Assembly: GCA_017871115.1 (NCBI GenBank)
Contig: JAFCIZ010000001.1
Span: 186,001 to 250,000 of the forward strand
DNA length: 64,000 nt
Reading direction: 5' to 3'
DNA from: Cunninghamella blakesleeana
Lineage: Eukaryota > Mucoromycota > Mucoromycetes > Mucorales > Cunninghamellaceae
The first letter of the stretch is position 1. Each line of letters starts with the position of its first letter. The notes under the pieces were generated by a model. The model was not told the origin of the DNA. It made no database searches and was given only the letters and a program-made list of their open reading frames with translations. This document shows, in pieces, positions 1,943 to 36,945 of the stretch. Position numbers and translations under genes: made by a program.

Positions 1943-2165
1943 CAGTATTTCCACGTAACTTTTTCGGTTTTTTAGTAAATTTTTGTCGGGATTTTAAACC
2001 CTTTTTTGTCGCTTTTTTTTAAAAAATTTGTCGCTTTATTTTTTTTTTTTTGTCGGTTTTATTTTTTTGTTTTGTCATTTTTAAAAACGTTTTAAAAAGA
2101 AACTTTATTTAAGCATAAATCAAAATAACCTATAGAACTTTTTATAAATCCAGAAAGATTTTGAG
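1943..2165 (+). repeat. Left terminal inverted repeat of Tc1/mariner element
   Basis: Mirrors 3427-3643 on the opposite strand with few differences. Contains repeated TTTGTCG motifs, and from 2092 onward also encodes the C-terminus of the transposase on the - strand. Confidence 0.9.
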
Positions 2166-3400: not shown

Positions 3401-3426
3401 TTTATTTCTTAAGTGACTACTTGTAT

Positions 3427-3643
3427 CTCAAAATCTCTCTGGATTTATAAAAAGTTCTATAGGTTATTTTGATTTATGCTTAAATAAAGTTTTTAAAACG
3501 TTTTTAAAACGACAAAACAAAAAAATAAAACCGACAAAAAAAAAAAATAAAGCGACAAATTTTTTAAAAAAAAGCGACAAAAAAGGGTTTAAAATCCCGA
3601 CAAAAATTTACTAAAAAACCGAAAAAATTATGTGGAAATACTG
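3427..3643 (-). repeat. Right terminal inverted repeat of Tc1/mariner element
   Basis: Inverted copy of 1943-2165. Read on the + strand from 3427 it still encodes the same roughly 20 residues (NLSGFIKSSIGYFDLCL) that end the transposase, so coding DNA has been copied into the far end of the element. Confidence 0.9.
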
Positions 3644-3645
3644 TA

Positions 3646-4228
3646 AAAACATAATTACACAATTGGGGAAATGATGTTTGGTCTATGGACATTAACTTTG
3701 AAAACGTTTTTATTTTTATTAATAGTCTGTGACACATTGACGACTGTAACACCAATGTAAATTTGATGGGCAGCTTGACATTTGAATAAATATAATTGTA
3801 ACAATCACTATTTGTATATAGATACACACATATATATATATACAAGAGCAAGAAAACATAAATGATATCAATAAATAATATTATAAAAGTTAATCATTTA
3901 AGAATATATTAGGATTATAAAATATTAATTACAAGAGTATATATATATATATATATATATATTTAACATTTATAAAGGATAGGATAATAGCATAAAAATA
4001 AAAAAAATAAAAAAAATAAAAATAAAAAAAAGAGAAAAAAGGAAAGAAATAAAGTTTACCTCAATTAAACCCGCGAATGATTAGTGAAACAGAATTACCA
4101 ATTTCTTTTTAAATATATATATACATTTATATTTATCATTATTTTGCTAATCTCTTTTTTTATTCTTTTTTTCTTTCCTCTCTCTCTCTCTCTCCTTTAT
4201 ATATATTTCTTACATTAAATAAAAAACT
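3646..4228 (+). promoter_or_regulatory. Upstream region of P450 copy 2
   Basis: Contains a block GAATGATTAGTGAAACAGA near 4076-4094 that recurs upstream of copy 4 at almost the same distance from the ATG (about 155 bp). The stretch 3720-3860 also resembles 24385-24560 upstream of copy 4 (shared ACATTGAC and GTAACAC strings), so the two promoters derive from one duplication. (TA)n runs lie near 3937-3962. The reading frame across 3564-3851 is not supported as a gene. Confidence 0.55.
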
Positions 4229-7900: not shown

Positions 7901-9278
7901 CACTGTAATAAAAAAAGAGCTGAAAAGTACTGATTTTTTGATTTCAAAGTTCTGATTCAATACCACTTTTATTACACAATAATGGATGTAATTCAGTTCT
8001 GATTGAGTATTATTCATTACTGTTCAATTCTAATTAAGTATTATTCAGTTCTAATTAAGTATTATTCAATACTATTCAGTTCCAGTCAAATACTATTAAG
8101 TACCGATTAAGTATCCTTCAGTTCTAATTTCATAAAATTTATTAATAAAAAATATATACTCTTCCAATTTTAGTCATTACAAGTATTTGAAATATATTTG
8201 AAATTTATATAATAAATGTTGATATTATTATATTTTAGATAATTATAATATTTACCAACAGTAGAAATAAGTTTATGAACTTGATTACATTTTTAAAGAA
8301 TACCAGCAGAATATAATCTAAATCCAATCACTAATACTGAAAATATATTATATAAATTAATTTCTGAAAATTTTATTAGTTTACAAGACGATGACGATGA
8401 TGATAATCATGTTGACACTAATATATATGATAGTTCTGTTCCTATCATTTGTGAATTAGAAGATGGAAACAAAATCAAATTATTGGAGTCTAAGCTACCA
8501 TCGTTAGAAGAAATGGAAACAAATTTACAAGTAATAAAAGAATCAGAAGAAGTAGATATCAAGATTCTTCTTGAGAAATTTTATAAAGGTAAACACGACA
8601 GTTCAAGGCAAGTAATTAGTAATAATTATATTTATAATAGATTAAAAAAAAAACTCAAATAAACAACGCCCAAAAGATTTTGTAATTTTTCAAGTATTTC
8701 AACATTTTATAATACAGACTAATAATGAAGGAGTATGGAAAAAGTGTTTTGCAAAATTAATATATACCTTTTATTATGTATGTATAATCAAATCTGCAAC
8801 ATTATGTATAGTAGGTATAGTTAAATATATTTGTGTTGATGAAGGTAATTTGATCGAGTATCAAAATTCATCCACAAAAAATAAAAAATAAAATATAAAT
8901 TCTTGTTGTAGATGCTCCTGGTTAAATAATAATGCTACATATTTAGAATAATCCAACTTTGTCAATAACACCCAAGGATCAAGAAATTGGACTTATATCC
9001 TAGAATGGCAAGTTTTGACCCTATCCTTGAAACTTGTTTCGAATTATAATATTATTTTTACTATTATTATTCATTTCATTATAGTAGTATTATATAATAA
9101 AATACAACTACAACAATAAAAATATGAGTTGACAGTTTTTTTTTTTTTTTTTTTTTTTTTTTTGCAACAATGGTTTTCTTTTTTATATAGCTTTTATTAT
9201 TAAAGAAATAATCACAAACTTTTTGCTAAAAATTCAGCCGTCTTCAGTGCTCTTAGGCTCATTTTTTTTATTACAGTG
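7901..9278. mobile_element. Degenerate TA-flanked DNA transposon
   Basis: Ends are CACTGTAATAAAAAAAGAGC on the left and its near-perfect inverse (GCTC, T-run, ATTACAGTG) on the right. Both are flanked by TA (7899-7900, 9279-9280), as in Tc1/mariner-like elements. The interior has one open stretch without a start codon (about 8290-8662) that encodes an acidic segment with an Asp run, not recognisable as a transposase. The left 400 bp recur at about 61422-61822, so this is a dispersed family. No intact gene is present. Confidence 0.75.
8290..8662 (+). pseudogene. Relic reading frame inside the TA-flanked element
   Basis: About 120 codons stay open and end in TAA at 8660-8662. The translation is acidic (for example LQDDDDDDNHVDTN, then KLPSLEEMETNLQ). 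No ATG begins it and no catalytic motif was recognised. It probably represents a piece of the element's former gene; a spliced fragment of something else is possible. Confidence 0.45.
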
Positions 9279-15810: not shown

Positions 15811-16002
15811 TATTGCGCGCAAATTTAACAATTCGGGCCGCCATTTATTTGTTCCTGTTTTCGGAACCCGGTGCTCCTTTTCTTTTGATTGGCTGATTCA
15901 CATGCTTTTATTAAATGATCAAAAAAATTTTAATAAAAAAGGAACAGATACTTCAAAAATATATAAATTTGTATATTTTTTTCTTTTTTCTTTCATTTCA
16001 TT

Positions 16003-16052
<50 letters not shown>

Positions 16053-16082
16053 CAAATTCTTACATTATTATTAAAAAAAATC
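15811..16082 (+). promoter_or_regulatory. Promoter region of P450 copy 3
   Basis: A GC-richer patch (about 15815-15900) stands out in AT-rich surroundings. It contains GCGCGC, CGGGCCGCC, TTCGGAACCCGG, and an inverted CCAAT box (GATTGG near 15887). A poly-T run of about 50 bases (15998-16052) lies just upstream of the ATG. It lacks the ATTAGTGAAACAGA block of copies 2 and 4, so its control probably differs. Confidence 0.5.
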
Positions 16083-18463
16083 ATGTTGACCCAATATTTC
16101 AATCATTTTGCAAAAAGTTTTGATAAAAATACCTTGGACCAAGTTCAAAAGGTAGCTACTTCTAAAGAAGGTGCTATTGGTATTGCTTCCGCCATTGTTT
16201 TAATGGCTGGTTTGTCTGTATACAATTCAAATAAGGTAATCATCTTTAATTTATTCATCATACTATATAATATTTCTCTAATTCTCTCTATTTACCCTTT
16301 TTATAAAATCTTTAGTTTGATCGTGGTTGCCCAAAAGTTCCCGATAGTCATTTCATTTATGGTTCTTCTTTAGAATATCGTGAAGATCCTCAAGCTTTCA
16401 TTGAAAAATGGAGAAAGGAATTAGGTGATGTTTATTGTGCAAATTTATTCGGAGAAGTAAGTTGATCTATTTTTTTTTTTTTTTTTTTACCCTCATTCAA
16501 AAAAAAAAAATAATATCAATAATTAAAAATAGAATCCAGTATTAATTTTTTTTTTTTATCTTTTTTTAATAAAAAAGGAAACCGTCGTTGTATCTGGCCC
16601 TCAAGTTCGTGAAGTTTTCTTGGATGATAGATTTAGTTTCTTAGAAGGTGTTATGAGAGTAAGTAAACACTTCATTTGATTATATATCATCTCAATATAA
16701 ATAAATACAAAAATCAATATATTCATACCTATTAATAAAAACAACACTTCTCTTCCTTTTAGAACTTTAACGTTCTTCTTTTAACCAATTCAGCCTTTAC
16801 TGTTAAGGATAGTGCTGATTCTCTTACCGAGATTATTAAAAAATTCCTTAATCCTAACCTTAAACATTTCACTCCTCGCCTCATTAGTTATGTAAGTAGA
16901 ATATATATATATATATATATCAAGAGAGTTTTTTTTCCTTTAATTTTAATATTTATCATTGTTATAATATATTTATATATTTATATATTTATATATATTT
17001 ATGTATGTAGCTTACTTCAGCTTTCCATGATTTTGCTGGTGATATTCCTGGTAAGTAGTTTTTTTTTTCTTTTTTTAACCGTTATAAAATTCAAACCCAG
17101 TTCATTTTCATCTAACCCTTTTTTTTTTCTTTTTTTAAAAAAAAACTAATTATATTAATAAAGCTGAAGGAAAAGATATCTATCACGCTTATCCTATGAT
17201 TCAACATATGGTCGCTAATGCAAGTGCTGCTGTTTTTGTCGGTCCCGAATTGGCTAAAAATGAACAATTAATCGATTCTTTCAAAAATATGGTTATTGAA
17301 GTTGGTTCTGAATTGACCCCTAAACCTCTTATGGAATATTTACCTAGTGTTAACTACTTGCGTATGTGGTACATTGGTAAAACCTCCCCTAAAGTTAAAA
17401 AACATCACAAACAATTAACTGATGCTTTGAAACCTGAAATCGATCGTCGTTTAAAGGCTATGGCTCTTAATGATAGTAACTGGGAACGTCCCGTAAGTAT
17501 CATATTATTCATCTTGAATTTTACAAAAAATATTTATGCAAAACCTTCTTCTCTTCCTCTCCCCCTTGATTTTATATTAACATTTATCTTTTACTTATAA
17601 TTATCTAGGACGATATCTTACAAAGCATCATCGAATCTAAAGAACGTCCTGAACGTATGGATGTTCACGTTTATACCGTAGAACTCTTAACTCAATTCAT
17701 CTTTGCCGCCTTACATACTACTAGTGAAAATGGAACTGTTGCCTTTTACCGCATCATGAGCCACCCCGGATTAATCGATGAATTACTCGAAGAACAAAAT
17801 CAAGTATTAGAAAATGAAGGTTATGATCAAAACTGCGGCCCTGAAGTATTTACTCGTGAAATCCTCAATAAATTCGTTAAATTAGATAGTGCTATTCGTG
17901 AAGCTTTTAGACTTAAAAACTCTTATATTGACTTGGCTCACAAAAATATGTCTAATGATAATATCGTCTTATCCGGTGGTGCTGTGATTAGACCTGGAGA
18001 ACTTGTTCATCTTAATATGCACGCAAATCATAATGATCCTAGTCTCCAAAAGGTATTTGACGAACTTCGCGAATATAAACCTCTCCGTTTCTTGAATGCT
18101 GAAAGAAATTCTACTAAAATCGGTGACGATTTCCTCTTTTTTGGGCTGGGACGCAGGGCCTGTCCTGGAAGGCAAAGATAATATCAAAAACGCCATAAAA
18201 CGATAGAAAAAAGGATATAAAAGATAGTTTAATAGGAAGGGAAGGCATCGAAGATAGTGACTTTTTGATTTTTACTAAATTTTTCTTTTTTCTTTAATTT
18301 TTTTTTATAAAAAAACAGATGGTTTGCAGTACAAGAAATCAAGACTATTGTATCTTATATTATTCGTAAATATCAAGTAGTTCCTCAAGGTGACATTACC
18401 TTCCCTGTAAAAGATCGCGACTTTATGCCTATGGGTGTCTATAAACTTGTCCCACGCAAATAA
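16083..18463 (+). CDS. Cytochrome P450 (array copy 3)
   Basis: A 526-aa heme monooxygenase of the array. Exons: 16083-16235, 16316-16456, 16578-16658, 16763-16891, 17011-17050, 17164-17492, 17609-18171, 18319-18463. Exon lengths after the first match copies 4 and 5. Seen: an N-terminal anchor (GIASAIVLMAGLSVY), the I-helix AALHTTSEN, the K-helix EAFR, KPLRF, and the heme loop FGLGRRACPG. Intron 7 starts with GC (GGAAG|GCAAAG) instead of GT; the acceptor and the frame across it are normal, so a GC-AG intron is the simplest reading. If it is not spliced, the protein ends right after CPGRQR and lacks the last 48 residues. Confidence 0.93.
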
Positions 18464-20100
18464 TTTACATGGTTATAATATGGAGGCACTTAGTGATGCT
18501 GACAAATTATAAAAAATATTCTCTGGAATCATGGTTAAAGAAAATTTTCATTGATCATAGATTGTTGTTATTTTAATTTATCCATACATATATATATATC
18601 CAATTATTTATTAATCAAGTGTATTTTTATAAAAGTAAAAAAATATAAGCTATTTTATATATTCTATTTGGAGGTGAATGATGTTTTGTAGTGGAGAGAA
18701 AAAAGAATGCGACTATTTATTAGATTAATTTTGTATGTCAATATACTTTTTAAAATGTTGATGCAATTTTAAAATTTGAAATTTCGATTTTGAGTAATAC
18801 TATGCGTAGGGGAAAGTCCGCTAGATATTTTTGTCGGATTTTTAAATTTACAGAATATGATACTCTTTTTTGTAGTCCTTTTCTTTTTTTCTTTTTTTTT
18901 TTTAAAAAATTTTATTTTAGTTTTTAATACAATAGTGGTTTTATATCATTTATTATAAGGGTTATGTTTTAACAATTATTGAATAAGGTTCATATGAATA
19001 TATACGTTTTTTTTATATATAATGCAATAAATTATCTTGTTAGATCTATGATGTTTTTTCTTTGATTTCTATCTATTAGAGATGATAATATTTACTTACA
19101 TAACTTTACACAATTAGGTAAACCTTTTTTACGATATGTTTTCATATGCAGAATATAACATAAATGGATCATACACTGCTCTAGGTTTGATTTTTACAGT
19201 AATTATATGATTGAAAGAATGTAGCAAAACAATAGTAGCCTTGTTTTGTAATTGTGTATAGTCAGAGGAAGGAGAAAAAAGTTGCTTCAGTAACAGAATA
19301 AAATTCAACTGGTTTTAGAAAAATATCAACAACTAATTATGGATAATAAAAACTGTCATATTATAGAATAGAAGGACAATCGCCACCAGCTAATAAGACT
19401 TCTTTAAATATGATATTTACTTGGATACAGAAATCTTATTTGCAGTATATCAGCTTTCTTTTTCCATTAAAAAATCAATTCTAGATTTTATGTTCTTTTA
19501 TATATTATGATCTATATTATGATTTTATTTTATTTATCTACATTATTGTTTACAATTATACTGCATATATTCATATCAGTATTACTGCATTACTTTTATA
19601 ATCATTGGTAAATACTATATTATTATATGTTTGTGTTGGCGTTATAGTGCCATTACTACTACTGACTCATTGCCAAAACTTAAAATTTCCAAAATCCGAA
19701 GTCGCTGTTTTAAAATCTTAATTTTTTAGAAATGAAATTAAAATACAGAACGCTTAAATATTTCATCACTATTCGTATATTATAAAAAATATATAATAAC
19801 CAAAGTATACTATAAAAATTATTTATTGAAGGTCAATTTTATATTCTCACCAGATAAATCGACCTTCACTGGTCAAATTTAACTGAACTCTTTACAAAAA
19901 AATTTTAACAAAAAAAAAAAGTAATCTAGTACCTTTTGCTATTAAATATCATATGTATCAAAATACTGGTTATTTTTATTTTAATTTTATTAATGGATTG
20001 TTAATATATATTTTTTTAAAGCAATAAAAAAAAATTATGGTTAAAACTTGAAAGCACCGTACTATCGTTTAAAACGAATAAAATACTTGATAACAGATAC
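18464..20100. other. Intergenic DNA downstream of P450 copy 3
   Basis: About 1.6 kb of AT-rich DNA with no coding sequence recognised. It separates the P450 from the homing-endonuclease-like gene. Confidence 0.5.
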
Positions 20101-20463: not shown

Positions 20464-23240
20464 ATGGAATTACGTCGTAGTGAAAGAATTCGCCAACAAC
20501 AACCTATTACATATACAATCTATAATTCTGATTCTGATTCTAGCATTAGTTCTGATTCTAACACTAATACTGATTCTAACGCTGACACTGACCCAAACGT
20601 TGATTCTGATTCTGGAATTGATTACGATTCTAACACTGATAATAACTCTAACGCTGATTATGATCCTGATATTGATCATGATTCTAACACTGATGCTGGT
20701 TCTAACATTGATTCTGATTATAATATTGATTCTGATTCTGATTCTGACATTGACACTGAAACTAACGATAACAGTGAATCTATGGAAGAAGATGTTGTTA
20801 CTGATACAGTGGATGCTGAAAGAGATGGTGATGGTGAGGGTACAGTAGAAATCGAAGCCGATAGAGAAGCTAATGATGATAATGATGATGGCAGTGATGA
20901 TGAAGAAGTGGTGGATATTGGAAGTGATGACGAAAATGAAAATGATGATATAGATATTAATCAAATAGCAAATGAACTACCTGAAAATCATAATCGTCAT
21001 AATCGACGTCTTTTAGAACAAACAACTATAAACGATCCAACAAGTATAATTAATGGTGCCGAAGTTGATGTATTTTCTACTCGTAGTGGTCGTAGTATAA
21101 TTGTTGATATAATGATGCCTTTAGGTGAAAATGAAAGAAGATTGCCTATTGAAGATCTCAAAAGAGCGGAGCTTCCTGCTTGGTTATACAACAATGAAAA
21201 TGGTCATTATCCTATCATTTTTTATTTTTTTCTTGGATTTTTTTGCGGTGATGGTGTACATAGGCAAAGCACTTCATTTGTTGGTATAGCTCAAAGAAGC
21301 ACAAGTTGTTTTATGATCATTGATTTGCTATTAAGAATGGGTGTAAGAAAAATTAATTTAAGGTAAATTTATATTAATTTTAGCTATTACTATTGCTAAT
21401 GAAACTTAACATCTAAATATTATATATTTTTTATTATATATATATAGTTTTCATTGTAAAGAAGTACCGATAACTACTTATGGTGGAGAAGCAAGTACTG
21501 TTTTATGGAGCATGTATGATGTAAATTTTGCGCATTTTTATGAACAAGTAACAGGAATGCCTTCCTCTCATATTCGAAATACTAATTCTGACCTTCTAAA
21601 TGCCTTTCTTCCTCGTAACCAAGCTAATCGAAATTTTTTTAGCGTTTGGTTACTTGGTTTCATCTTGGCTGACGGCTGTGTTCACTCTACTTGGAAAGGG
21701 GAGTTTTATGACACTTTGTTAACATTTAAAAATGTATCATCTTCGGCTAGAGATCATGGTATTATCCGTTTTATTCATAATCGAGTGAATTTTTTTGGTG
21801 GTCGCGCAGTAAATCCATTTCCTCATGCACATAAACTTGGTACTTACTTTTCTGGTTTTGGTACTAGGGACCTTCTCATGGATGGTATACGCCTATTAAT
21901 TGAAAATCAAATTCCATTGTATGGTAAACTATCACTGCTTTCTGAATTACTAGTTACCAATGCTCATCTTCCTGCAAGTGTTCTTAGCCGTGCAGCTGGG
22001 AGAAGACAAGCGTTTGACACCTTTTTAACCAATGATGTAGATGATATTGAGAGTATTCCCAATTTACCTATTAGAGGTGACATTGCTCAGTAAGTTCTAT
22101 ATAATCCATATTATATTATACCCTTTATTATAGTTATTTAAATTAAAATGAATGATTATATTTTATTTTTATTTATTTAATTATCATTGTAGGGATGTAT
22201 ATAAACTCAATTATCATCAGTTGATGGAATTCTTAAATCTGATGGCTATACAACAAGATATACTTTCCATTTGGGCGTTTGATTTGGACAATCTCATGGA
22301 TACTATCATGTCAACCCTTCCATTACAACAAACCACTACAGCTGGTCTTTTATTTAGAAGAATATATTGGCATCAAATTCAAACAAGAATAATACCTATT
22401 GCTGAAATAATCCATAATTTAAATGATGGCTTTCGTGGAGCTGTAACGGTAATACTTATATATATATATTATTGAATATACTAACGTTTTTGAATTTTAG
22501 CCGTTTATTCAATGCACAGATCCTGAATGTAGAATGGTGATTAAAAGAAGATCGTTTAGTAAACATGAAAGAAGAACCGGGCATCGAGTAATATATACAA
22601 AAAAGAAAATTAGATCATTATTTATTTACTAAATAATTCAATTTCTCTCATTAATCCGATATAGAATTGGAGGGATGTCCAATTAGTAGATCGATTTTCT
22701 GTAAGTTGATATTCAAAAATTAATATAAAAAGAAAAATATAAAGTGTTTCCATAATATTTCTAACTTTTTAAAAATACTTATATATATATTATTAATAGA
22801 GACCAGTAACCTACCGCTATTTTCCTATTCAAGCTCGCATACTAGATGTAAATTGATAATTATATATAAAATGTTATATTTAATATTATATACATATTAA
22901 CTATATTATATTATATTATTTTTATTAAAATAAAAAGAATGGAAGATTTGGTTGTCCCATTGAAAACTGTACTCAAGATTTTTCAAGAAACGATACCATT
23001 TTTCACCATATTAAAACAGATCATTTATCCGAAGTAAGTAATCAATCATCATTACCATCAGTATCGTTATCTTTATGGTATAATTACTTATTGTTTTTTA
23101 TATCTTTTTTTAACAGGAAGAGAAAATTGCTACAGGTTTCGTTTTCCCTTGTACAATGTGCGCAGGGAATCCTAGGTTTCGAGACATGAATTCCTTGACT
23201 CGACACTATACTAGGAATTTCCCTGGGCATCACGTAAGTG

Positions 23241-23276
<36 letters not shown>

Positions 23277-23471
23277 TATATATAAATAATTATAGATGTG
23301 CGTTTTTCTTTGAAAAAAATGCTTTATTCGTCTTTTTTTTTTTTTTTTTTTAAAAAAAACCTTATTCTTTTTAAAAAAAATCAATAGATGACAAGGGCAG
23401 ATGCTAGAGCTCGGGTAAATAGAGAGCGCGCTGACCACATGCAGCGAACATACCCTGATAGTCTTATATAA
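20464..23471 (+). CDS. LAGLIDADG homing-endonuclease-like protein with zinc fingers
   Basis: Predicted nuclear DNA-binding nuclease of 754 aa. Exons: 20464-21362, 21448-22089, 22193-22448, 22501-22587, 22665-22700, 22800-22847, 22938-23033, 23117-23233, 23388-23471; all introns are GT-AG, 52-154 nt. Order: basic start MELRRSERIRQQQ; acidic Ser/Asp/Asn repeats (about 20-170); first LAGLIDADG-type motif FFLGFFCGDG (255-264); second motif LLGFILADG (368-376). Both keep the catalytic Asp, 112 residues apart, as in two-motif monomeric enzymes. Three zinc fingers follow: CTDPEC...H-X5-H (about 604-627), CPIENC...H-X5-H (about 662-685), CTMC...H (about 700-727). The layout resembles yeast HO, but no intein splicing domain is seen. 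It sits between two P450 genes; target unknown. Confidence 0.85.
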
Positions 23472-24117
23472 TATTTTTTTTTATTTTTATATATTTTATA
23501 AGGCTATCACTATATTTTTTATTTTATATTTTTTTAATATTTTTTATTTTTATTTTTTATATTTTATTATAATTTTATATTTTTATTTTATTATAATTTT
23601 TTTTATTTTTTATTTTATTTAGAATGCTCTATTTATTATTATAATTACTTGTATGTTTATATTATTTTAAAAAAGAAAATAGCAAGATAAATAATAAATG
23701 AGCTGAAAAAAAAAAAAAAAAAAAAAAAATCACCATAGTAAAGTTCATTCCTTTTGAAAATTTATGTGGTAGGAAAAAAAAAAAAAAAAAAAAAAAGAGT
23801 AATTTTTTTTTACTTGCGTCCTCATTTTTTTTTTCTCTCTAATACCTACAACATATATATATATATATATATATTAATGAGAAAACCGACGATTGATCAC
23901 CGGTATTTTAATTTATTTAATTGAGATATGTGTGTATATAATTATTGATTTATCAATATAATATAGAGTATATAAATGTATAATTATTTTATAAATTGAA
24001 TAAAGATAACCATTTATATTTATGTACTAAAGATATAACGATAATATATGTTAAAGTCTATATAAAAAGTAAATAAAATATGGGGTAATGAAATATAATT
24101 AAAATTAGATAATAAAA
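23472..24117. other. 3' flank of endonuclease gene
   Basis: A-runs and T-runs, then DNA resembling 34631-35190 downstream of the truncated copy (shared pattern of TTTAATTTATTTAATTGA type near 23910 and 34965). The duplicated unit therefore extends past the stop codon. No gene. Confidence 0.55.
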
Positions 24118-24235
24118 TGATTTTCTATACAAGGAATCAAGCTTACAGTATCATATATTGTCTATAAATATCAAGCAATATAATATTACAAATTTATTAC
24201 TTACAGATAATATATTTACTTTGCCATGCTTATAT
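24118..24235 (+). pseudogene. Orphan relic of P450 exon 8
   Basis: The stretch beginning ATGATTTTCTATACAAGGAA aligns with the start of P450 exon 8 (ATGGTTTGCAGTACAAGAAA), through TATAAATATCAAG. No exon 7 or heme loop precedes it. It lies about 650 bp downstream of the endonuclease stop codon and 0.75 kb upstream of P450 copy 4. Confidence 0.65.
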
Positions 24236-24384: not shown

Positions 24385-24939
24385 TAATGATCAGTGGTAC
24401 ATTGACAAGTGTAACACAAATTTTAAATTCGATTGACGGATAGATATTTGAAGAAAATAATCGTACCACAACGCATATAAAATCATGGAACGAAGCCGAT
24501 ATCGATATAAAAATGATATATGAAGTAATCATTTAAGAATATATTAAGGCAATGAAAATAAATTACATTATACGCACACACACACACACGCACGCACACA
24601 CATACACACAAACACACACACTTATACATACATACATACGTACATATATAATATTATTTTTAAATTAAAGAGCATAGTAATAATTTTATAAAAAAAAAAA
24701 AGAAAAAAGAAAAGGGGTTACAAAAAAGGAAACAAGATGAAGGAAAGGAAAAGAAAAAGAAAAATCTTTACATAATAAATTCGCGAATTATTAGTGAAAC
24801 AGATTTCTATATTTTTTTTTATATTTATTTATATATATATATATATTTCTTTTTTTATTTTTATTTTTTCTTTTTCTTTTCTTTTTTTTTCTCTTTATAT
24901 ACATATATAAATATATATATTTACATTATATAGAAAACC
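24385..24939 (+). promoter_or_regulatory. Upstream region of P450 copy 4
   Basis: GAATTATTAGTGAAACAGA at about 24785-24803 matches the block upstream of copy 2, with almost equal spacing to the ATG. Part of 24385-24560 matches 3720-3860. A CA-rich microsatellite (ACACACACGCACGCAC and CATACATA runs) occupies about 24572-24645. Confidence 0.55.
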
Positions 24940-25713
24940 ATGTTAACTCAATATATGAATCGTTTTATCAATAATTTTGATCAAAGAAAAACAGTGAATA
25001 GTCTACAAAAGATTGTTACTTCCAAAGAAGGGGCTATTGGCATTGCCACTGCTGTTATTTTAATGGCCGGTATCTCTGTTTACAAGTCAAAAAAAAAGGT
25101 AATAAGCAAGTGTATAGATAAATTATAATTATTGATTTTAATAAATTATTTTAATTTATGAATAGTTTAATCGTGGTTGTCCTAGGGTTCCTGATAGTAA
25201 TTTCCTCTTTGGATGTTCTGAAGATTATCTTAAAGATCCTCAAGGATTTATTGAAAAGTGGAGAAAGGAATTGGGAGATGTTTACTGTGCCAACTTGTTG
25301 GGAGATGTAAGCTTTTTTTTTCAAAAAAAAAAAAAAAAAAAAGATATATAAAAATAGAACCTATTACTAATTTTATTTACTTTAAATATTTCAATGAAAA
25401 AGGAAACTGTAATTGTATCTGGTCCCCAGGCTTTAGAAATTTTTAATAATAAAAATCTTAGTTTTTTGGATGGTATTTTTAGAGTAAGTAATGGTGATTC
25501 AAAAAAACATTTAGTTTATTTTGATTAACAAGAAAAAAAAAACCGATTTTTTTTATTATTATATAGAATTTCAATTCTATTCTTTTAACTGACTCTGCTT
25601 TTACTATAAAAGATGGTTCTGAATCTCTTACTGAGCTTATTATACAATCTCTTAATCCTAATCTTGATCACTATACTCCTCGTATTATTGATTCTGTAAG
25701 TATATTATAAATT

Positions 25714-25749
<36 letters not shown>

Positions 25750-27305
25750 ATGACCATGTATTCATGATTATTATAATTATTGTCTTTTTTATAAAAGCTT
25801 ACTGCTGCTTTCCATGAATATGTTGGTCAAGTTCCTGGTAATTTAATTATAACTATTAAAAATAATCATTAAAAATAATTAGAAGAAAATTAAAACCCAG
25901 TTTGATTTTTTATATAAAAAAAAGTTCATTGTTGAAAACTCTATTTTTTTTTATTTAAACTCACTATTTCTTTTTTTTTTTTTTTTTAATAATAATGTAA
26001 ATATAGCTGAAGGATTATTTTTTGAACATGGTTTTCCTATAATACAACATATGGTAGCTAAAGCAAGTGCAGCAGTATTTGTTGGGCCTGAATTAGCTAA
26101 AAATGAAAAACTCGTAGATTCTTTCAAAAATATGGTTTCAGAAGTTGGTTCTGAATTAGTACCTAGACCTCTCATGGCACTCTTCCCTTCTTTAAACTAT
26201 ATTCGTATGTGGTATATTGGTAAAACCTCTCCTAAAGTTAAAAAACATCGTAAACAGTTGGCTGATGCTTTGAAACCTGAAATTGATCGTCGTTTAAAGG
26301 CTATGGCTCTTGGTGATAGTAATTGGGAACGTCCTGTAAGTGTTGTATTTTATATATTGAAATTATTCAAGAGCAAAAAAAAAAAAAAAAAATGAATAGT
26401 ATATTACTTTTTTTGACTTGTTTATATATTAATATTAATCTTTTATTATTATTATTATTATTATTTTCACCTTTTTTTTCCTACATGTAATTAATCTAGG
26501 ACGATATTTTACAAAATATCATTGAATCCAAACAACGTCCTAAACGTATGACTATCCATGTGTTTACTTTAGAAGTATTGACTCAATTTATCTTTACAGC
26601 TTTACATACTACGGCAGAAAATGGTACGATAGCTTTTTATCGTATTTTGAGTAAGCCTGGATTAATGGATGAACTATATGAAGAACAAAAACAAGTTTTG
26701 GAACAACAAGGATATGATAAAGATTGTGGACCTAGAGTGTTTACACGTAGTACTTTTAACAAATTTGTTAAATTAGATAGTGCTATTCGTGAAGCTTTTA
26801 GAATTAAAAATGTATATATTGATTTAGGTCATAAAAATATTAGTAAGGAAAATGTAGTTTTATCTGGTGGTGCTGTAGTTAAACCTGGGGAACTTGTTCA
26901 TCCTAATATCTATGCTAATCATACAGACCCTAGATATCAAGACGATCCCAATAATCTTTATGAATACAATCCTTACCGTTACTTGGGTGTTGATAAGAGT
27001 GTTATTAAAACTGGGGTTGATTATCTCTTTTTTGGGTCCGGACCTCATTCGTGTCCTGGAAGGTAAAATATAATATTAAAAATGACACAAGATGATGAAA
27101 AACATAACATAAATTATAGGAGTAAAGATAATAATAACTTTATAAAAAAAAAAATAGATTTTTTGCCTCTTTAGAAATCAAAATTATGATTTCTTTTATT
27201 ATTCGTTATTATCAATTAACTCCTCAAGGTAATATTACTTTCCCTACTAAAGACCGTGAACATCATCCCACTGACGCTGCATTCAAGCTTATTCCACGCA
27301 AATAA
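24940..27305 (+). CDS. Cytochrome P450 (array copy 4)
   Basis: A 529-aa heme monooxygenase. Exons: 24940-25098, 25166-25306, 25403-25483, 25567-25695, 25798-25837, 26007-26335, 26500-27062, 27158-27305. Seen: an N-terminal anchor (GIATAVILMAGISVY), the I-helix TALHTTAEN, the K-helix EAFR, and the heme loop FGSGPHSCPG. It is the most divergent complete member: the Trp that opens exon 8 in the other copies is Phe (RFFASLEIK), exon 8 is three bases longer, and the KPLRF stretch is NPYRY. All junctions are GT-AG and the frame is intact, so it is probably functional, perhaps with a different substrate. Confidence 0.93.
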
Positions 27306-29054
27306 TTTATTTATTTATTTATTTATACTCATTATATATATATCCCGAATAACTATCCTTTAACGTATTTTTTTTTATAAAAAAAATAAAATAAAAAAAA
27401 TAATAGAATATACTCAAGATTTTCATTTTTAAATTATAAAATACAAACAAAATTTCTATATAAAGTAAAGCAATATTATTCAACTGTTTTTATTTTTCAT
27501 TTACCTTTGATATGTATTCATTTCTCTTTTATTAGGAGGATAATATCATAAAAATCTATCAAGGCAATTCAAAATAAAAAATGACAAATCAGTGTAAAAA
27601 TAGTAAATAAATGAAAAAATCGGCACAAGCAAAATATTTTTCCGGCTGTGATTTTTTGTATTTTTCCTTTTTCTTTAATCTTGTGTAGTTTTTATATATA
27701 TTACATTTAAATAAGCAAGGGATGTATTTCTTTTAAACAAGTTTTACTGATTTTACAATGATGTACATTTTGATTGCTTTAGATCACAACATGCCTAGTA
27801 ACTTGGAATTATTTATTTTAAAAAAAAATTAGAGTATTTGTATAAAGCTAGAATAAAATATCAATCAAATGTTTAGTATATTTAAACGACAACATACTAA
27901 AATAAAAAAAAATTATGGATAAATTTAGGATGTATTCCTGTATGGTACTTTATATATGAGAATAGTTGGGTATAAATAATAAATTCTATATATTCCTGAA
28001 AAATATAAAATTAAAACAACTGAAAAGAAAAAAAAAATAATTTAACCTAGAATATATATCATTAATTTATTCATTAAGCTACTTTTATATTGAAATTCCA
28101 CCATCTGCTAAACATAAACTCATTTTGTCAAGAGATTATTTACTTGGACAAATTAAAGTTGACGAAATTATAATTACAAAATTACATTAAATAATAATAA
28201 TAAAAAAAAAATGATCTAGAATATCTTGGATAAAAGTAATTTATGTTTGATAATATTATAATCTTTCTCTCCTAAATGATAGAAAATGATCGACTCTGGT
28301 TTTTTACTTCAAGATGAGATTAATAGTTACATAATGTTACACAGTAATATGTATATATGAGTTAAAATTAGTAATCAAAAAAGATAGTTGTACATCAACT
28401 AGCATACTATACTCTTCATTGTTCATCGAAAGATAAATTATAGATTATCAATCATATAGATAAAGACAAAAGAAAAAACAAATTATAAAATCCTTTAATA
28501 ATGTATGCATCGCGAAAATAATCCATTTGATCTTGTAGCTAAAAGTTATTGAAATTTGCATCAAAGAAATTTATAATTTGCGACTATATTAGATTCGTAG
28601 TGGATAAACTTAGGTATGCTTATAGTCTATTAAAAAAAAAACTACTCATTCAAATTTCTTATTTGCATACTATTATATGAAAAATGGATTACATATGAAT
28701 ATCAAAGTATTCAAGTTTGATAAAAGAAATTTTTTTTTTCATATTTTAAAAATTAAATATAAAAACAACAACCTCTTTTTAAAAACTAACCTTTTGCAAA
28801 TATTTATATGTTTATTACTATAATTTTATTATAAAATATTGATCACTATTGCTAAATTTAATAAGTTTACATCTAAATACTAATATTATATTAATTAATT
28901 CCTTGTAATATGACAGAGCATTCATATTTTTATAAAAATAAATAAATAAAAAAAAGGTCAGATGTCAGATATCTTTTACTATTTATCATAACCTTACAAA
29001 CGTGTATATATGCAATTTGGGACATATTGTTTTTATTTTTATCTTTTAGAGCCA
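27306..29054. other. Intergenic DNA downstream of P450 copy 4
   Basis: About 1.75 kb of AT-rich DNA. Neither an endonuclease remnant nor any other gene was recognised. Confidence 0.5.
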
Positions 29055-30192: not shown

Positions 30193-30285
30193 CCTGCGAT
30201 AATAAAAAATGAATAAATATCCCTATTTTTTTCCTTCTTTTTTTCCTTTTTTTTTTTTTTTTTAATTCTATAACAATAGATAACC
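29191..30285. promoter_or_regulatory. Intergenic DNA and promoter of P450 copy 5
   Basis: Mostly AT-rich without genes. A GC-richer patch near 30081-30130 (GGGTGGCGCTG, GTGCTTCGCCAG) followed by a long ATT/AAT trinucleotide run (about 30139-30182) precedes the start codon. The ATTAGTGAAACAGA block of copies 2 and 4 is absent. Confidence 0.45.
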
Positions 30286-32704
30286 ATGTTAACTCAATAT
30301 ATCAATCATTTTATTAACAATATTGATCAAAAGAAAACTATGGATCAAATCCAAAAGGTTGCTACTTCTAAAGAAGGTACTATCGCTATTGCTACTGCGG
30401 TAGGTTTGATGGCTAGTATTTCTCTTTATAATAATACAAAAAAGGTACTTGTAACAATCATCTTTTTCTCTATAAATAACAAATTATTTACATATAATAA
30501 TAATAATAATAATAATAAAACTTGTGTATTTATATAATGATAGTTTGATCGTGGTTGTCCTCGTGTCCCAGATAGTAGTTTGATTTATGGCTCAACAAAA
30601 GAATATCGTAAGGACCCTGAAGCTTTTATTAACAAATGGCAAAAGGAATTAGGTGATGTTTATAGTGCTTTCTTATTCGGAGAAGTAAGTGTTGGTTATT
30701 TTTTATTTAATTTTATTTTAGAATATAAGCATATAAACTTATCCCAAAAGTGCTTTATATTAATTTACTTTTTACATGTTATTTTTATTCTTTTATTTTA
30801 AAGGAAATTGTAATTTTATCTGGTACTCAAGTTCGTGAAGTTTTCATGAATAATAAATTAAACTTTTTAGTTGCTGTTAAAAGAGTAAGTATATACATGC
30901 ATATAATCATGAATGGTCATATAAAAAAATACTAAAAGATAAATTACACAAAATATTAAAATTACTATTGTTTATTTTCACTCCTTTTTTATTTACTAGA
31001 TATTTGATAATTATCTTTTAACAAATTCAGTCTTTACTCTTGATGGTGATTCCAAAAAGCTTGTTGATTTGATAAAAAAATATCTTAACCCTAACCTTAA
31101 GCATTTTACTCCTCGCGTTGTTGAAAATGTAAATTAATAATCAGATTCGCAATTAAAAAATAAATAAACATAGTAAAAATAAATCAATGAAATAATTCAA
31201 CTTTTATTATTATTATTTTTAGCTTACACTTGGTTTCAAGGAGTATGTCGGCGATATCCCTGGTAAGTTTTTTTTTTTTTAAAAAAAAAAAAAAATATAA
31301 AAAATAAACACAGTAGATATAAAGTTGACCGTCATTCTAAATGTGGAAACAATTTAACCTTTTATATATTATAATATAGCTGAAGGGAAAGAATTCTCTA
31401 ATGTTTATCCTATGGTTCAAAGTATGGTAGCTAAAGCAAGCGCATCGGTTTTTGTTGGTACGGAATTAGCTAAAAATGAACAATTAATTGACTCTTTTAA
31501 AAATATGGTTATTGAAGTTGGATCTGAATTATCACCTAAACCTTTATTGGAACTTTTCCCAAGAATCAATCGACTCAGAATGTGGTACATTGGAAAAACC
31601 TCGCCTAAAGTTAGAAAACATCGTCAACAATTATATGATGCTTTAAAACCTGAAATTGATCGTCGTTTAGAAAATATGAGACTCAACGATAGTAACTGGG
31701 AACGTCCTGTAAGTATTAAAAAAAAATATTGATTATATCATGTTTTTATTTATTTTATTGACCTTGTTATTTTTCTCTTTTTTTTTTAAAAAAAAAAAAA
31801 TACAACAACATGTTTATAATATTCTATCATATAGGAAGATATTCTACAAGCTATGATTGAATCCAAGGATCGCCCAGAACATGTTGACATTTATGTTTAT
31901 TGTTCAGAACACATCACCCAATTAATCTTTGCTGCTTTACATACAACCAGTGAAAACAGCACTATAGCATTGTATAGAATATTAAACCACCCTGGATTAA
32001 TTGATGAATTACTTGAAGAACAAAATGAAATATTGGAAATGGAAGGATTTGATAAATCTTGTGGTCCTGAAGTATTTACTCGTGAAATTGTCAACAAATT
32101 CGTTAAACTAGATAGTGCTATTCGTGAATCACTCCGTGTTAGAAATGATCATATTACTCTACCCCATGTTAATATCAGCCAAGAAAATGTCATCTTATCC
32201 AATGGTGTAATTATTCGCCCTGGTGACAGTGTTTTTATTAATTTAACTGCAAATCATTATGATCCATATATTCAAAAGACCATTGATGACCTTAAAGCAT
32301 ATAATCCTCTTCGATTTATAAATGCTGGAAAAAATGCTACTAAAATTGGTGATGATTTTCTTATATTTGGGTTAGGACCTAGATCGTGCCCTGGAAGGTA
32401 AAATATAATATTAAAAACGCTATAAAACGATGAAAAAAAGCATATAAAGTATAGGTTAATAGTAAGAAAAGGCTACAAATATAATAGTTATATGTTTTTA
32501 TTATTAATAATCCTGTTTTTTTATTAATAATTCCGTTTGTTTTTATTATAAAAAATTAGATGGTTTGCAGTACAAGAAATCAAGACTATTATATCTTATA
32601 TAATTCGTCGATTTGAAATTGTTGCTTTGGATGAAATCAAATTTCCTACTGGAGATCGATACTTTTTACCAACTGGAAAATTTAAACTTATACCACGAAA
32701 ATAA
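30286..32704 (+). CDS. Cytochrome P450 (array copy 5)
   Basis: A 528-aa heme monooxygenase. Exons: 30286-30444, 30544-30684, 30804-30884, 31000-31128, 31223-31262, 31380-31708, 31835-32397, 32560-32704; all GT-AG. Seen: a hydrophobic N-terminal anchor (IATAVGLMASISLY), the I-helix AALHTTSEN, the K-helix ESLR, NPLRF, and the heme loop FGLGPRSCPG. The end of intron 7 and exon 8 are nearly identical to those of the decayed copy at 36384-36528, while the upstream exons are not. It is followed by the truncated endonuclease copy. Substrate unknown. Confidence 0.94.
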
Positions 32705-32844
32705 TTTACCCGGTCATATAAAGAAAATGTGTAATGATACTATCGAATAACAAAAAATATCCTCAGAAATCTTTGTTAAAGAAAACCTTCTTTTGACTAT
32801 GGGTCGTGGTTATTTAATTATTTATCCATACGTATATATATCCA

Positions 32845-32882
<38 letters not shown>

Positions 32883-33085
32883 AGTGTATTTTTATAAAGT
32901 AAAATAATATTTTATATATATTTTTTATTCTGTTTGGAAACATATGGCTATTTTAAGTAAATATTGATATAAATATTTACTTAGCGGAGTTTCATTAGAT
33001 CAGTTTTTATGTTGTATGTTTTTAATGCGTTTTTTATATATATATTTATTTTTCAATATACCAACATTTAAAATGATTATAATAA
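32705..33085. other. Intergenic DNA downstream of P450 copy 5
   Basis: AT-rich, with a T-run at about 32846-32877. No gene. Confidence 0.5.
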
Positions 33086-34630
33086 TTGATAATAATTACA
33101 AATGAGTATATTTCTACAAATATGATGATAATAATGATTTTAATGATAATAGCTAAACCAATGGGAAAAATGAAAATAATGAAAACAATGAAAATAATAA
33201 AGGCAATGAAAACAATGAAAATAATAAAAGCAATGAAAACAATGAAAATTATTTTATTTATATTTCCATTCTTTTTCTTTTTTTCTTTTTTCTCTTTCTC
33301 TTTCTCTTTTTCTTTTCATTTTCATTTTCTTTTTTAGCAGTTTAGGAAACTTGGAAGAATAACTGGTCATCAAGTAACATATATAAAAAAAAACTTAAAA
33401 CTTTATCTGTGTATTAGCTAACTTAGTTATTTTCATTAATTTGATGTAGAACGGAAAGACTATCAATTATCAGGTCTATTTTTTGTAAGCTAGTAAAAGA
33501 TAAAAGTAAAAATAAAAATAAATAAATGTTTATTTTTTTTTATTTTTTTTTATTAATAGGGGCCAGGAACCAGGTACTTATAGCCTATCGCTATTCCCTA
33601 TATGAACTTCGTGTACTAGATGTAAATTGATAATTATACAAAAGTTAACATATTTGATATTACATATATAATAACTATACTATTATAAAAAAATAGAATA
33701 GTTGATTTGGCCATCCCGTTGGAAATTTTACCCTAAAATCTTCAAGAAACGGCACCATTATCCATCATATTAAAGTAGATTTTGTATTTAACATAAAATA
33801 ATAGTGTTGAATACCTTTATAATTTGTAATACACTTGTACTTCACATAAAGTATTTGGTATTAATTATAAAATCACTATTGTGTACCTGATATGAAATGA
33901 ATCATTTATATTAGCTCACTCAATATAATAGCCTTAAATCTTCCAATCCCGCAGATACATTACCATATATGTACTTTAAACTCCACACTAATCCATATCA
34001 CTTTCACCAAATAATCCAACAACTTTATTTCATACTATATAATATATAAATTAAGCCTATTGTCACTAATCCACCAAAAATTATTGTTATAGTACTTGTT
34101 TTAAACATTTGAAAAAAGGTCAATGAATTGTACCATGATACATTTCTTTGTCTTTTAATATTTTTAATTTGATAAATACAACAGAAGATCATCTGTCCAA
34201 GGTAAGTAGACAATTATTATTTCCACTAATATCGTTATCTTTATGATATTATCGCTTATTAATTCTTATGCATTTTTATTAACAGGAAGAGAAAATTGCT
34301 ACAGGTTTCGTTTTCCCTTGTACAATGTGCGCAGGAAATCCTAGGTTTCGAGACATGAATTCCTTGACTCGACACTATACTAGGAATTTTCCTGGGCATC
34401 ACGTAAGTGCTGAAAAAAAAAAGATATATATAAATAATTATAGATGTGCGTTTTTCTTTGAAAAAAATACTTTATTCATCTTTTTTTTTTTTTTTTTTTT
34501 TTTTTTCCAAAAAAAAACTTTATTCTTTTTAAAAAAAAATCAATAGATGACAAGGGCAGATGCTAGAGCTCGGGTAAATAGAGAGCGTGCAGACCATATG
34601 CAGCGAACATATCCTGACAGTCTTATATAA
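33086..34630 (+). pseudogene. Truncated copy of the LAGLIDADG/zinc-finger gene
   Basis: Collinear with 20100-23471 but lacking start codon, acidic region, both LAGLIDADG motifs and most of finger 1. The minisatellite and T-rich leader (33086-33335) run straight into the end of exon 4 (about 33336-33381). Exon 5 (about 33450-33486), exon 6 (about 33561-33619, with a small duplication) and exon 7 (from about 33698) follow, decayed; finger 2 has lost its cysteines. Exon 7 is split by a ~400-bp insertion. By contrast exons 8 (34286-34402) and 9 (34547-34630), with their splice sites, are nearly identical to the full copy and encode exactly the same residues. Confidence 0.85.
33781..34182. mobile_element. 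~400-bp insertion in relic exon 7, MITE-like
   Basis: Interrupts exon 7 of the truncated copy between AAAGTAGAT and AGAAGATCATCTG, where the full copy is continuous (AAAACAGATCATTTATCC). Its ends are weakly inverted (TTGTATTTA left, TAAATACAA right). AGTAGAT and AGAAGAT may be a decayed target duplication. No coding capacity. Confidence 0.55.
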
Positions 34631-35189
34631 TATCTTTTTTATTTTTAATTTTATATGATTATCACTTTATATTTTTTTCATATTCTCTTTTTTTTTATAA
34701 TGCTTTATTTTTTGTATTTTTTTGTATATTTATAACTTTTGAAAATAATAAAGATAATTAGTATTAATACCAATGAAATATAAATTGGAAAAAAAAAAAT
34801 CACTATAGCAGAATGATATAACCAGCACCGAAAATTAATTTCTTTTGGATTTTTATATAAAAAAGAACAATGAAAATATTTTTTCACTTTTACCTTATAC
34901 TTTTTTTTTTAATACTTTTAACGTATATACATAAATCAGGAAATCTGATGATCCACTGTCGATTTTTTAATTTAATTAATTGAATTGTATGTGCATTCAT
35001 TTAATTATTTAATATTACAGTATGGTATATCTTAGTTTATTACTATCTATTAGCAGCTTTCGTATTAATTGATTCTTTGAAGGTATCCATTCATGCTTAT
35101 GTTTTATAAACTAAAAGGTGGTATATATATAATTATGATAAATAGAGCATGGTATTTGATTTTCTTTTTTATTAATTATATATTAAGGT
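34631..35189. other. 3' flank of truncated endonuclease copy
   Basis: Corresponds loosely to 23472-24117. AT-rich, no gene. Confidence 0.5.
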
Positions 35190-36528
35190 GCATTTATATG
35201 CAAGAAATCAAGACTATTGTACCTTATATCATCCATAACTATTAAATAATTCTTCATGGCAATATTGCTTTACCAACTCAAAATCTATTTTTGTTGGTAC
35301 TGAACTGGTTAAAAATAAATAGCTAATAGATTCTTTTAAAAATATGGTTATTAGAGTTGTTTCTGAAACAGTATCTAAACCTCTTATGGGATATTTACCT
35401 AATATTAACTATTTGCGTATGTGGTATATTGGAAAAACATCATAAACAATTATTTGATGCTTTGAAACCTGAAATTGAACGTCGATTGAAGGTTATGTCG
35501 CTTAATGTCAGTAACTGTGAATGTTTTGTAAGTATTGTAAAATATATATTAAAAGTTTATTTTTCTGTTTGAAAAAAATAATACGCAAATACAGTAATTT
35601 GTTTCTTCTTCAACTTTCTTATATATTAATATTTACCAATTTTTTGATTTGTTTTAATATATTTCTATTTAACTTAGGGTGATATTTTACAAAAAATCAT
35701 TGAATCTAAAGAACGTTCTGAATATATGGATGTCCATCTTTATACTTTAGAAGTATTAACTCAATTTATCATTGCTGCTTTGGGTACAATCAGTGAGAGT
35801 GGAACTATTGTTTTTTACCGTATTATGAATTACTCTGGATTAATTGTTGAATTACTCAAAGAACAAAATCAAATATTGAGAGATGAAGGGTTGGATAAAA
35901 ACTGCGGTCCTGAAGAATTTACACGTGAAATCCTTAATAAATTCGTCAAGTTAGATAGTGCTATACGTGAAGCTTTTAAAATTAAAAATTCTTATATTAT
36001 CTTGGGTCATCAAAATATAACGAATGAAAATATTGTCTTATCTAGTGGTGCTGTGATTAAACCTGGAGAACTTGTTTATCTTAATATGCCTGCAAACCAT
36101 AATGACCCTAGTCTTTAAAGGTATTTGATGATTTTCGTAAATACAAACCTTTTCGTTTCTTGAATGCTGGAAAAAATACTACTAAAATCAGTAAAGATTT
36201 TCTTTCATTTGGATTGGGACCTAGATTGTATCCTGGGAAGTAAAGTATAATATTAAAAACGCCATAAAATGATGAAAAAAATCATATAAATGATAGGTTA
36301 ATAGTAAGAAAAGGCTACAAAGATAGATATTATCCATTTTTTTTTTATTAATAATTCCGTTTGTTTTTATTATAAAAAATTAGATGGTTTGCAGTACAAG
36401 AAATCAAGACTATTATATCTTATATAATTTGTCGATTTGAAATTGTTGCTTTGGACGAAATCAAGTTTCCTACTGAATATCGAAACTTGTTACCAACTGA
36501 AAAATTTAAATTTATACCACGAAAATAA
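35190..36528 (+). pseudogene. Mosaic cytochrome P450 pseudogene (array copy 6)
   Basis: Begins with a decayed exon 8 fragment (35190-35283, containing AAGAAATCAAGACTATTGTA) fused directly to an exon 6 fragment (35284-35528); exons 1-5 are missing. Exon 6 has a stop (AAATAAATAG near 35317) and a deletion around the GKTSPKVKK region. Exon 7 (35678-36239) keeps much of its frame but has a stop plus a one-base deletion near 36114. The heme cysteine is replaced by Tyr (CPGR became YPGK), which would abolish heme ligation. Terminal exon 36384-36528 is close to copy 5, whereas exons 6-7 resemble copy 3. Non-functional, and formed by recombination within the array. Confidence 0.9.
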
Positions 36529-36945
36529 GTTTTTATCCTCTACTTTTCTTTTTTCTTTTTTGTTAATGTATATCCAATTATGATTCTTTATATATATATT
36601 ATTTATTTATTTTTTTGAACTATTCTAGTGCATTATATAAATAAAAATTAAGTTTTATTTTTTTATAATTATTATAGTGTATTTGCTTTGTTATGGTTTT
36701 TTTTAGGGTGTATTTTGTTGTATCACAAACAAACCTATTTTTGAAAACTTTAAAAAATTAGAGCTCAGCACTAAAAAAATTATTTTTTAATCATTTTTTT
36801 TAATTTTACTTCCTCTTTTTACTTTTTCTTTTTTCTTTGTAAATAAATTAAAATAAAAGTATTTTTTAATTTTATTATTAATATTATTTATACGTATACC
36901 ATTTTCATTTAATAATAAATATTATAAAATAGAATAGATGCTTCA
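36529..36945. promoter_or_regulatory. Boundary between P450 array and housekeeping genes
   Basis: AT-rich spacer without a gene. It presumably holds the promoter of the following CRAL-TRIO gene. No specific motif is claimed. Confidence 0.4.

Follow-up and report, generated by a model that had tools for sequence, protein, structure and literature searches.

The question raised by this locus is why a nuclear gene lying within an array of P450 genes encodes two LAGLIDADG-type motifs followed by zinc fingers, and whether its product could be a homing endonuclease. The window, a stretch of 64,000 nucleotides from Cunninghamella blakesleeana, covers positions 186001-250000 of its contig (C1) in a 31.9 Mb genome of 12 contigs, and the gene model at 20464..23471 on the plus strand is called the window gene below. 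The best known proteins of similar layout are from yeasts. In PMC7282813, HO and WHO are described as the only known fusions of an intein with a zinc finger, and the zinc finger as the feature that sets them apart from every other homing endonuclease. According to the same paper, HO is intein-derived and was domesticated for mating-type switching, while the zinc fingers of WHO have CX2C motifs and are GATA/Ash1-like. The WHO elements adjoin full-length FBA1 on its downstream side, some with FBA1 3' fragments between or after them, and each round of homing has been proposed to replace the FBA1 3' end and to build up clusters in which intact WHO copies lie among broken ones (PMC7282813).

Spliced as predicted, the window gene is 2265 nt long and forms an open frame of 754 amino acids (Table 1). 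All eight of its introns are bounded by GT...AG, and all eight splice junctions recur in P0001, a hypothetical protein from Cunninghamella echinulata that was compared with the window gene model. The nine-exon, 754-residue gene model proposed in the initial annotation was borne out, as was its description as an intron-rich nuclear gene, given the eight introns and a contig of 8 Mb. The acidic region predicted ahead of the motifs was also found: residues 1-230 include 68 Asp or Glu and 13 Lys or Arg. Fingers 1, 2 and 3 are encoded in exons 4, 7 and 8, in phase 0.

Table 1. Coordinates of the window gene, its parts and its neighbors, in positions of the window
Feature	Position	Strand	Basis or remark
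P450 P1	4111-6590	+	tandem array
P450 P2, directly upstream of window gene	15957..18672	+	PF00067, 82.7 bits
Exon 1: RRSERIR start, acidic region, LAGLIDADG motif 1	20464..21362	+	junction also in P0001
Asp/Ser/Asn-rich acidic stretch	20521..20979	+	residue counts
LAGLIDADG motif 1, FFLGFFCGDG, residues 255-264	21226..21255	+	paralog has LFLGLYFGDG
Exon 2: remainder of half 1, then motif 2 within half 2	21448..22089	+	I-HjeMI PDB match
LAGLIDADG motif 2, LLGFILADG, residues 368-376	21650..21676	+	weak Pfam; paralog VILGYFTADG
Exon 3: linker	22193..22448	+	splice model
Exon 4: finger 1, CX4CX11HX5H, residues 604-627	22501..22587	+	pattern search
Exon 5	22665..22700	+	junctions found in P0001
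Exon 6	22800..22847	+	junctions found in P0001
Exon 7: finger 2, residues 662-685	22938..23033	+	zf-C2H2_4 below cut-off
Exon 8: finger 3 (atypical), residues 700-726	23117..23233	+	pattern search
Exon 9: C-terminus and stop	23388..23471	+	splice model
Orphan P450 last-exon piece after window gene	24117..24175	+	exon nt 1-59, 76%, E 2e-6
P450 P3, directly downstream of window gene	24808..27309	+	sequence comparison, frame
P450 P4, upstream of decayed window-gene copy	30226..32938	+	3' part 90-93% identical to P5
Decayed partial copy of window gene, exons 4-9	33340..34734	+	between P4 and P5
Orphan P450 last-exon piece after decayed copy	35201..35259	+	exon nt 14-72, 83%, E 7e-12
P5: P450 pseudogene fragment, 5' half missing, stops	35285..36531	+	sequence comparison

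Both LAGLIDADG motifs were confirmed, FFLGFFCGDG at residue 255 and LLGFILADG at residue 368, 113 residues apart from start to start. Each has an Asp of the catalytic type, as do the two motifs (LFLGLYFGDG and VILGYFTADG) of a distant relative encoded in the same genome, referred to as the paralog, whose core is 26% identical to that of the window protein. A loose LAGLIDADG pattern had two matches in each of these proteins, and two matches occurred in none of 20,000 shuffles of either. When exon 2 was compared with the PDB, accepting E-values up to 10, all four distinct matches were homing endonucleases: I-HjeMI (E 0.0064), I-AniI (0.032 and 0.038), and 1dq3 (0.29), which we take to be PI-PfuI. 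I-HjeMI is presumably an enzyme of the LAGLIDADG class. The alignments fell at the LAGLIDADG motifs, at the second motif in the case of I-HjeMI and I-AniI, and a further PDB search of the window gene gave a best homing endonuclease E-value of 0.0055; over both searches, I-HjeMI and I-AniI ranged from 0.0055 to 0.045. The PDB sequences closest to the window gene, by way of its second motif, are double-motif enzymes of the LAGLIDADG class encoded inside group I introns of fungi, whereas the window gene is nuclear, is interrupted by spliceosomal introns and has fingers. At gathering scores, Rfam showed no intron within the window; together with the GT-AG introns and the lack of a Hint match, this does not fit an element housed in a self-splicing intron or an extein.

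The initial annotation had presented the protein as a LAGLIDADG endonuclease, and this stood in part. The core fragment of the window gene had Pfam matches to Endonuc_subdom (14.5 bits, cut-off 24.4) and LAGLIDADG_3 (13.0 bits, cut-off 22.5), and the core fragment of the paralog matched LAGLIDADG_3 with 16.4 bits, below the same cut-off of 22.5. The full-length window protein had no LAGLIDADG family among its Pfam matches, and its core had no match in NCBIfam; a search of PHROGs returned a phage endonuclease family (E 0.026). The weak core matches to Pfam and the PDB similarity thus agree with the annotation, and the curated cut-offs were not reached, so the window gene is classed as LAGLIDADG-like and not as a proven member. 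A profile built from the two sequences matched I-CvuI in the PDB at E 0.37. The likeness between the two halves of the protein was not above chance, and half 2, taken by itself, aligned weakly between the two paralogs (107 of 1,000 shuffles).

These scores would also be expected if the gene encoded a lineage-specific C2H2 protein in which two stretches look like LAGLIDADG motifs by chance. Such a protein would agree with the uninformative AlphaFold predictions from single-sequence input, without relatives, in which pLDDT was 37 for exon 2 and 34 for P0001, and with the paralog alone, for which neither of two weak PDB matches was a homing endonuclease. It would not account for the absence of paired motifs from the shuffles of either protein, for the conservation of both motifs in a paralog of such low identity, or for an exon 2 whose every PDB match is a homing endonuclease aligned at the LAGLIDADG motif, and it is considered very improbable. 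LAGLIDADG ancestry appears highly probable on these grounds; present nuclease activity of the predicted protein is held with less confidence than ancestry.

Cys2-His2-like motifs begin at residues 604, 662, and 700 of the window protein. Three such motifs in the C-terminal part were reached by 1 of 2,000 shuffles, and the Pfam finger match was to the middle finger only (zf-C2H2_4, 13.9 bits against a cut-off of 27). The paralog has five finger motifs, four of which fit the loose pattern, and as a whole protein it scored 31.6 bits against zf-C2H2 (PF00096), above the cut-off of 25.2, the best stretch being its last finger. The three motifs, together with paralog fingers above a Pfam cut-off, support the three zinc fingers of the initial annotation. 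The absence of a Hint domain, which it had also claimed, is supported as well: no Hint family was among the Pfam matches of either protein up to E 10, a range in which the HMMER filters drop most very weak matches.

Comparison with the yeast elements shows both shared and differing features. Like HO, the window gene is stand-alone and encodes a putative LAGLIDADG nuclease followed by zinc fingers; HO, however, is intein-derived and has a mating-type role (PMC7282813), and no such link is seen for the window gene. The likeness to WHO of Torulaspora and Lachancea (PMC7282813) may go further: a stand-alone nuclear gene for a putative nuclease with C-terminal fingers, located beside full-length copies of a probable host gene, pieces of whose 3' part follow it, in a cluster that also includes decayed copies. 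Set against WHO, the window gene has no Hint match, its fingers are C2H2 and not CX2C, and it has nine exons. In addition, the neighbor here is a P450 and not FBA1, and the fragments are 59 bp long instead of about 400 bp (PMC7282813). Cleavage by the window protein, for its part, is a prediction from sequence.

The shared order of parts, nuclease then fingers (PMC7282813 for HO and WHO), could have come about if a yeast HO or WHO gene had been gained by horizontal transfer. There is no Hint match, the fingers are of C2H2 and not CX2C type, some of the eight introns are common to the paralog, and no yeast protein was among the homologs found; transfer from yeasts is disfavored and hardly credible. 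The finger type, the absent intein part, and the introns shared by the paralogs fit an origin apart from HO and WHO, which is probable. Relative to PMC7282813, the window gene would be new as a nuclease-plus-fingers gene that fails two features of HO and WHO, the Hint part and the CX2C fingers. No nuclear LAGLIDADG-finger protein other than HO and WHO appeared in open PMC text, as judged by titles and abstract starts.

The paralog lies 1.5 Mb from the window gene, among other genes, at C1:1690095-1686870 on the minus strand. The gene was modeled with nine exons encoding 745 residues, RRSARIK being at the start. Two introns in the nuclease region are common to both genes, at alignment columns 83 and 369 and in phase 2. 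The intron after finger 1 is shared too (column 490, phase 0), and the intron ahead of finger 1 differs by six columns. In the paralog there is one exon per finger, each after a phase-0 intron. The shared intron positions imply that a nuclease-plus-fingers gene rich in introns probably existed before the two genes diverged. The 3' end of the paralog model is uncertain, since the last finger (positions 2371-2300, minus strand, in the numbering of its locus, L013) is modeled without a second His; shortly ahead of the stop there is a possible GT donor, which may lead to an extra exon.

The paralog is flanked by inverted repeats of 285 bp that are 87% identical (C1:1686432-1686716 and C1:1690699-1690978, or 1933-2217 and 6200-6479 of L013). 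Both derive, as truncated copies, from a dispersed repeat that contains an AAT tract, and outside simple sequence the two are closer to each other than to the other copies among the matches listed. The paralog and its repeats are possibly a mobile unit. No duplicated fragment of a neighboring gene was found near the paralog. At C1:1572689-1572979 (L019) there is a decayed sequence related to the paralog and interrupted by 12 stops; it is downstream of a frame that, by eye, reads as a subtilisin-like protease. Copies of the same dispersed repeat are also present in the window at 9043-9144 and 62120-62297.

Six tandem copies of one P450 subfamily (P0-P5) are encoded on the plus strand, P0 beginning before the window, and the window gene sits between P2 and P3. 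In a genome search with E-values up to 1e-6, seven of the eight matches to this subfamily were in the array (C1:185.9-222.2 kb); the remaining one, on C2, was far weaker (35%). The last intron of P2 has a GC donor (18150-18200), and the other P450 copies have GT. A search of the genome DNA, in which 40 of 47 candidates were scored and 49 matches listed, returned the window gene and its decayed copy as the three strongest matches. The other 46 listed were short and mostly in the A/T-rich 3' flank or in introns. The decayed copy is 67% identical to the window gene from exon 4 to exon 7, and its exons 8 and 9 have two and five changed codons, all seven of them synonymous, which indicates that these two exons either diverged under constraint or were converted.

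A P450 last-exon piece follows both the window gene and its decayed copy. The series full-length P2, window gene, last-exon piece and P3 recurs farther along as full-length P4, decayed copy, last-exon piece and the remnant P5. When eight spacers were tested with the last exons, two scores, 48 and 68, were higher than in any of the 60 shuffles, which reached at most 39 and 37. These were the two spacers downstream of window-gene copies; none of the other six had a match above the shuffles. The shuffles are lenient for simple sequence, as the P450 body also exceeded them in seven of the eight spacers, one of these being a self-match and the others probably simple-sequence introns. The two fragment-bearing spacers are homologous (62.8%), so the two fragments count as one event, and they probably represent a single event plus duplication. 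Two inverted stretches on either side of the window gene, 47 and 81 nt long (18865-18946 and 24646-24728), were considered as terminal repeats and rejected, because the right arm is P450 upstream sequence and the arms are mostly T/A runs. The same upstream sequence is found before P1, 24641-24806 resembling 3942-4096.

Sequence identity among the P450 copies is uneven. Between P4 and P5, the copies on either side of the decayed window gene, identity is 90-93% over the last intron and exon, 67-73% over the body that they have in common, and 47% beyond. This tract (18261-18457 in the coordinates of P2) was the strongest of the 15 pairs, with a score of 70.8, the next being 35.4, and it was reached in none of 2,000 permutations. 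Tracts located elsewhere in the gene were likewise reached in none of 2,000 for P0-P1, P0-P2, P0-P3, and P1-P2, in 1 of 2,000 for P2-P3, and in 10 of 2,000 for P1-P5. Conversion is therefore general across the array, and only the place and strength of the P4-P5 tract are suggestive. P2 and P4, each upstream of a window-gene copy, have 3' flanks that are 71% alike; among the 14 remaining pairs the range is 44-58%.

The paralog, the decayed copies, and a P450 array with last-exon fragments, none of which the initial annotation mentions, suggest a function for the window gene: it may be a free-standing homing endonuclease, WHO-like but of non-intein origin, that would be aimed by its fingers at P450 genes. 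This is the favored reading, at a probability a little short of even. The protein would fold as a double-motif LAGLIDADG nuclease and would cut P450 alleles or paralogs close to their last intron or last exon. A chromosome carrying a P450 3' end, the nuclease gene, and a P450 last-exon fragment, in that order, would be the repair template, so that repair would copy the nuclease gene in and swap the 3' end of the P450, and older copies of the nuclease gene would then decay. Gain or loss of exons, with one finger per phase-0 exon in the paralog, would let the choice of target shift. Support for homing comes from the retention of two Asp-containing motifs in proteins of 26% identity, from the position of the P4-P5 tract on either side of the relic and the similar 3' flanks of P2 and P4, and from the combination of intact genes and relics, in the array and for the paralog, which is the pattern described for WHO in PMC7282813. 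Homing is weakened by the length of the fragments, as 59 bp is short for homologous repair, though they are perhaps eroded from longer ones. It is also weakened by the paralog, which has inverted repeats in place of a duplicated neighbor fragment, by a protein in which no Pfam LAGLIDADG cut-off was reached and the halves are not alike, and by the C. echinulata model, which is without motif 2.

Several of these observations would also be expected if the gene encoded a LAGLIDADG-finger nuclease whose P450 address was incidental. It would then have been caught in a duplicating array, in which unequal crossing-over produced the fragments and tracts. Conversion is indeed common across the array, no P450 of this subfamily lies close to the paralog or to its relic, and the 285-bp repeats of the paralog hint at another way of moving. 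An incidental address would leave it to coincidence that last-exon fragments occur in both spacers downstream of window-gene copies and in none of the other six, and that the strongest tract of 15 pairs lies on either side of the relic and takes in that very exon. It is regarded as rather unlikely.

The protein search covered 5.8 billion proteins, with the 7,987 candidates that had most shared words being scored, and among these the sole relative was P0001 (683 residues), which is 90% identical to the window protein in the best local alignment. A protein search with the two-sequence profile again gave P0001 as the only relative, and one with the paralog found none. Distant relatives may be missed, because the search needs exact shared words and 7,987 candidates were scored. 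The initial annotation had placed the host in an early-diverging fungal lineage, in agreement with a Cunninghamella protein being the only homolog found. No homolog was found in scans of viral and prokaryote genomes, and a tblastn search of phages with a 56-residue piece of I-HjeMI had no match. A scan of the genome with PF14528 and PF00961 found no other LAGLIDADG gene, which says little, since the window gene and the paralog were missed too.

P0001 is without 68 residues around motif 2, and its remainder is intact. Judging from its protein letters and the DNA letters of the window, the most likely cause of the gap is a frameshift a short way upstream in C. echinulata, bridged by an annotated intron. 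The finger regions of the two proteins are identical at 153 of 155 positions, and elsewhere identity is 91-93% (half 1, 93 of 100; N-terminus, 204 of 221 aligned). The near-identical finger region is consistent with DNA recognition being under strong constraint, as would also be the case for a regulator.

The finger constraint and the acidic N-terminus together make a domesticated regulator a serious rival: a former LAGLIDADG protein with DNA-binding fingers and an acidic activation domain, controlling the P450 cluster. There is a precedent for it in bacterial WhiA, a former LAGLIDADG nuclease (PMC7282813). A regulator would suit a gene inside an enzyme gene array, and a C. echinulata model with no motif 2 but otherwise intact. 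It would not be expected to keep both Asp in both paralogs, to have a paralog 1.5 Mb off among other genes, or to leave decayed copies, and the C. echinulata junction would lose its weight if it reflects a bridged frameshift. Regulation of the P450s is judged unlikely.

If a non-intein version exists in Mucoromycota, the nuclease-plus-fingers design would have arisen more than once, and so perhaps would host-3'-end-swapping homing. Homing into P450s would also supply a cause for turnover of the P450 cluster, and one finger per phase-0 exon would be a natural route to the retargeting of meganucleases. In its broadest form the proposal is tentative: early-diverging fungi may have invented, apart from HO and WHO, a homing element made of a non-intein LAGLIDADG nuclease and exon-modular C2H2 fingers, naturally retargetable, which replaces P450 3' ends and shapes the array.

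A DDE_3 transposase frame is also present in the window (2092-3360, minus strand, 103 bits), within an element at 1941-3645 that is bounded by 225-bp inverted repeats, 96% alike.
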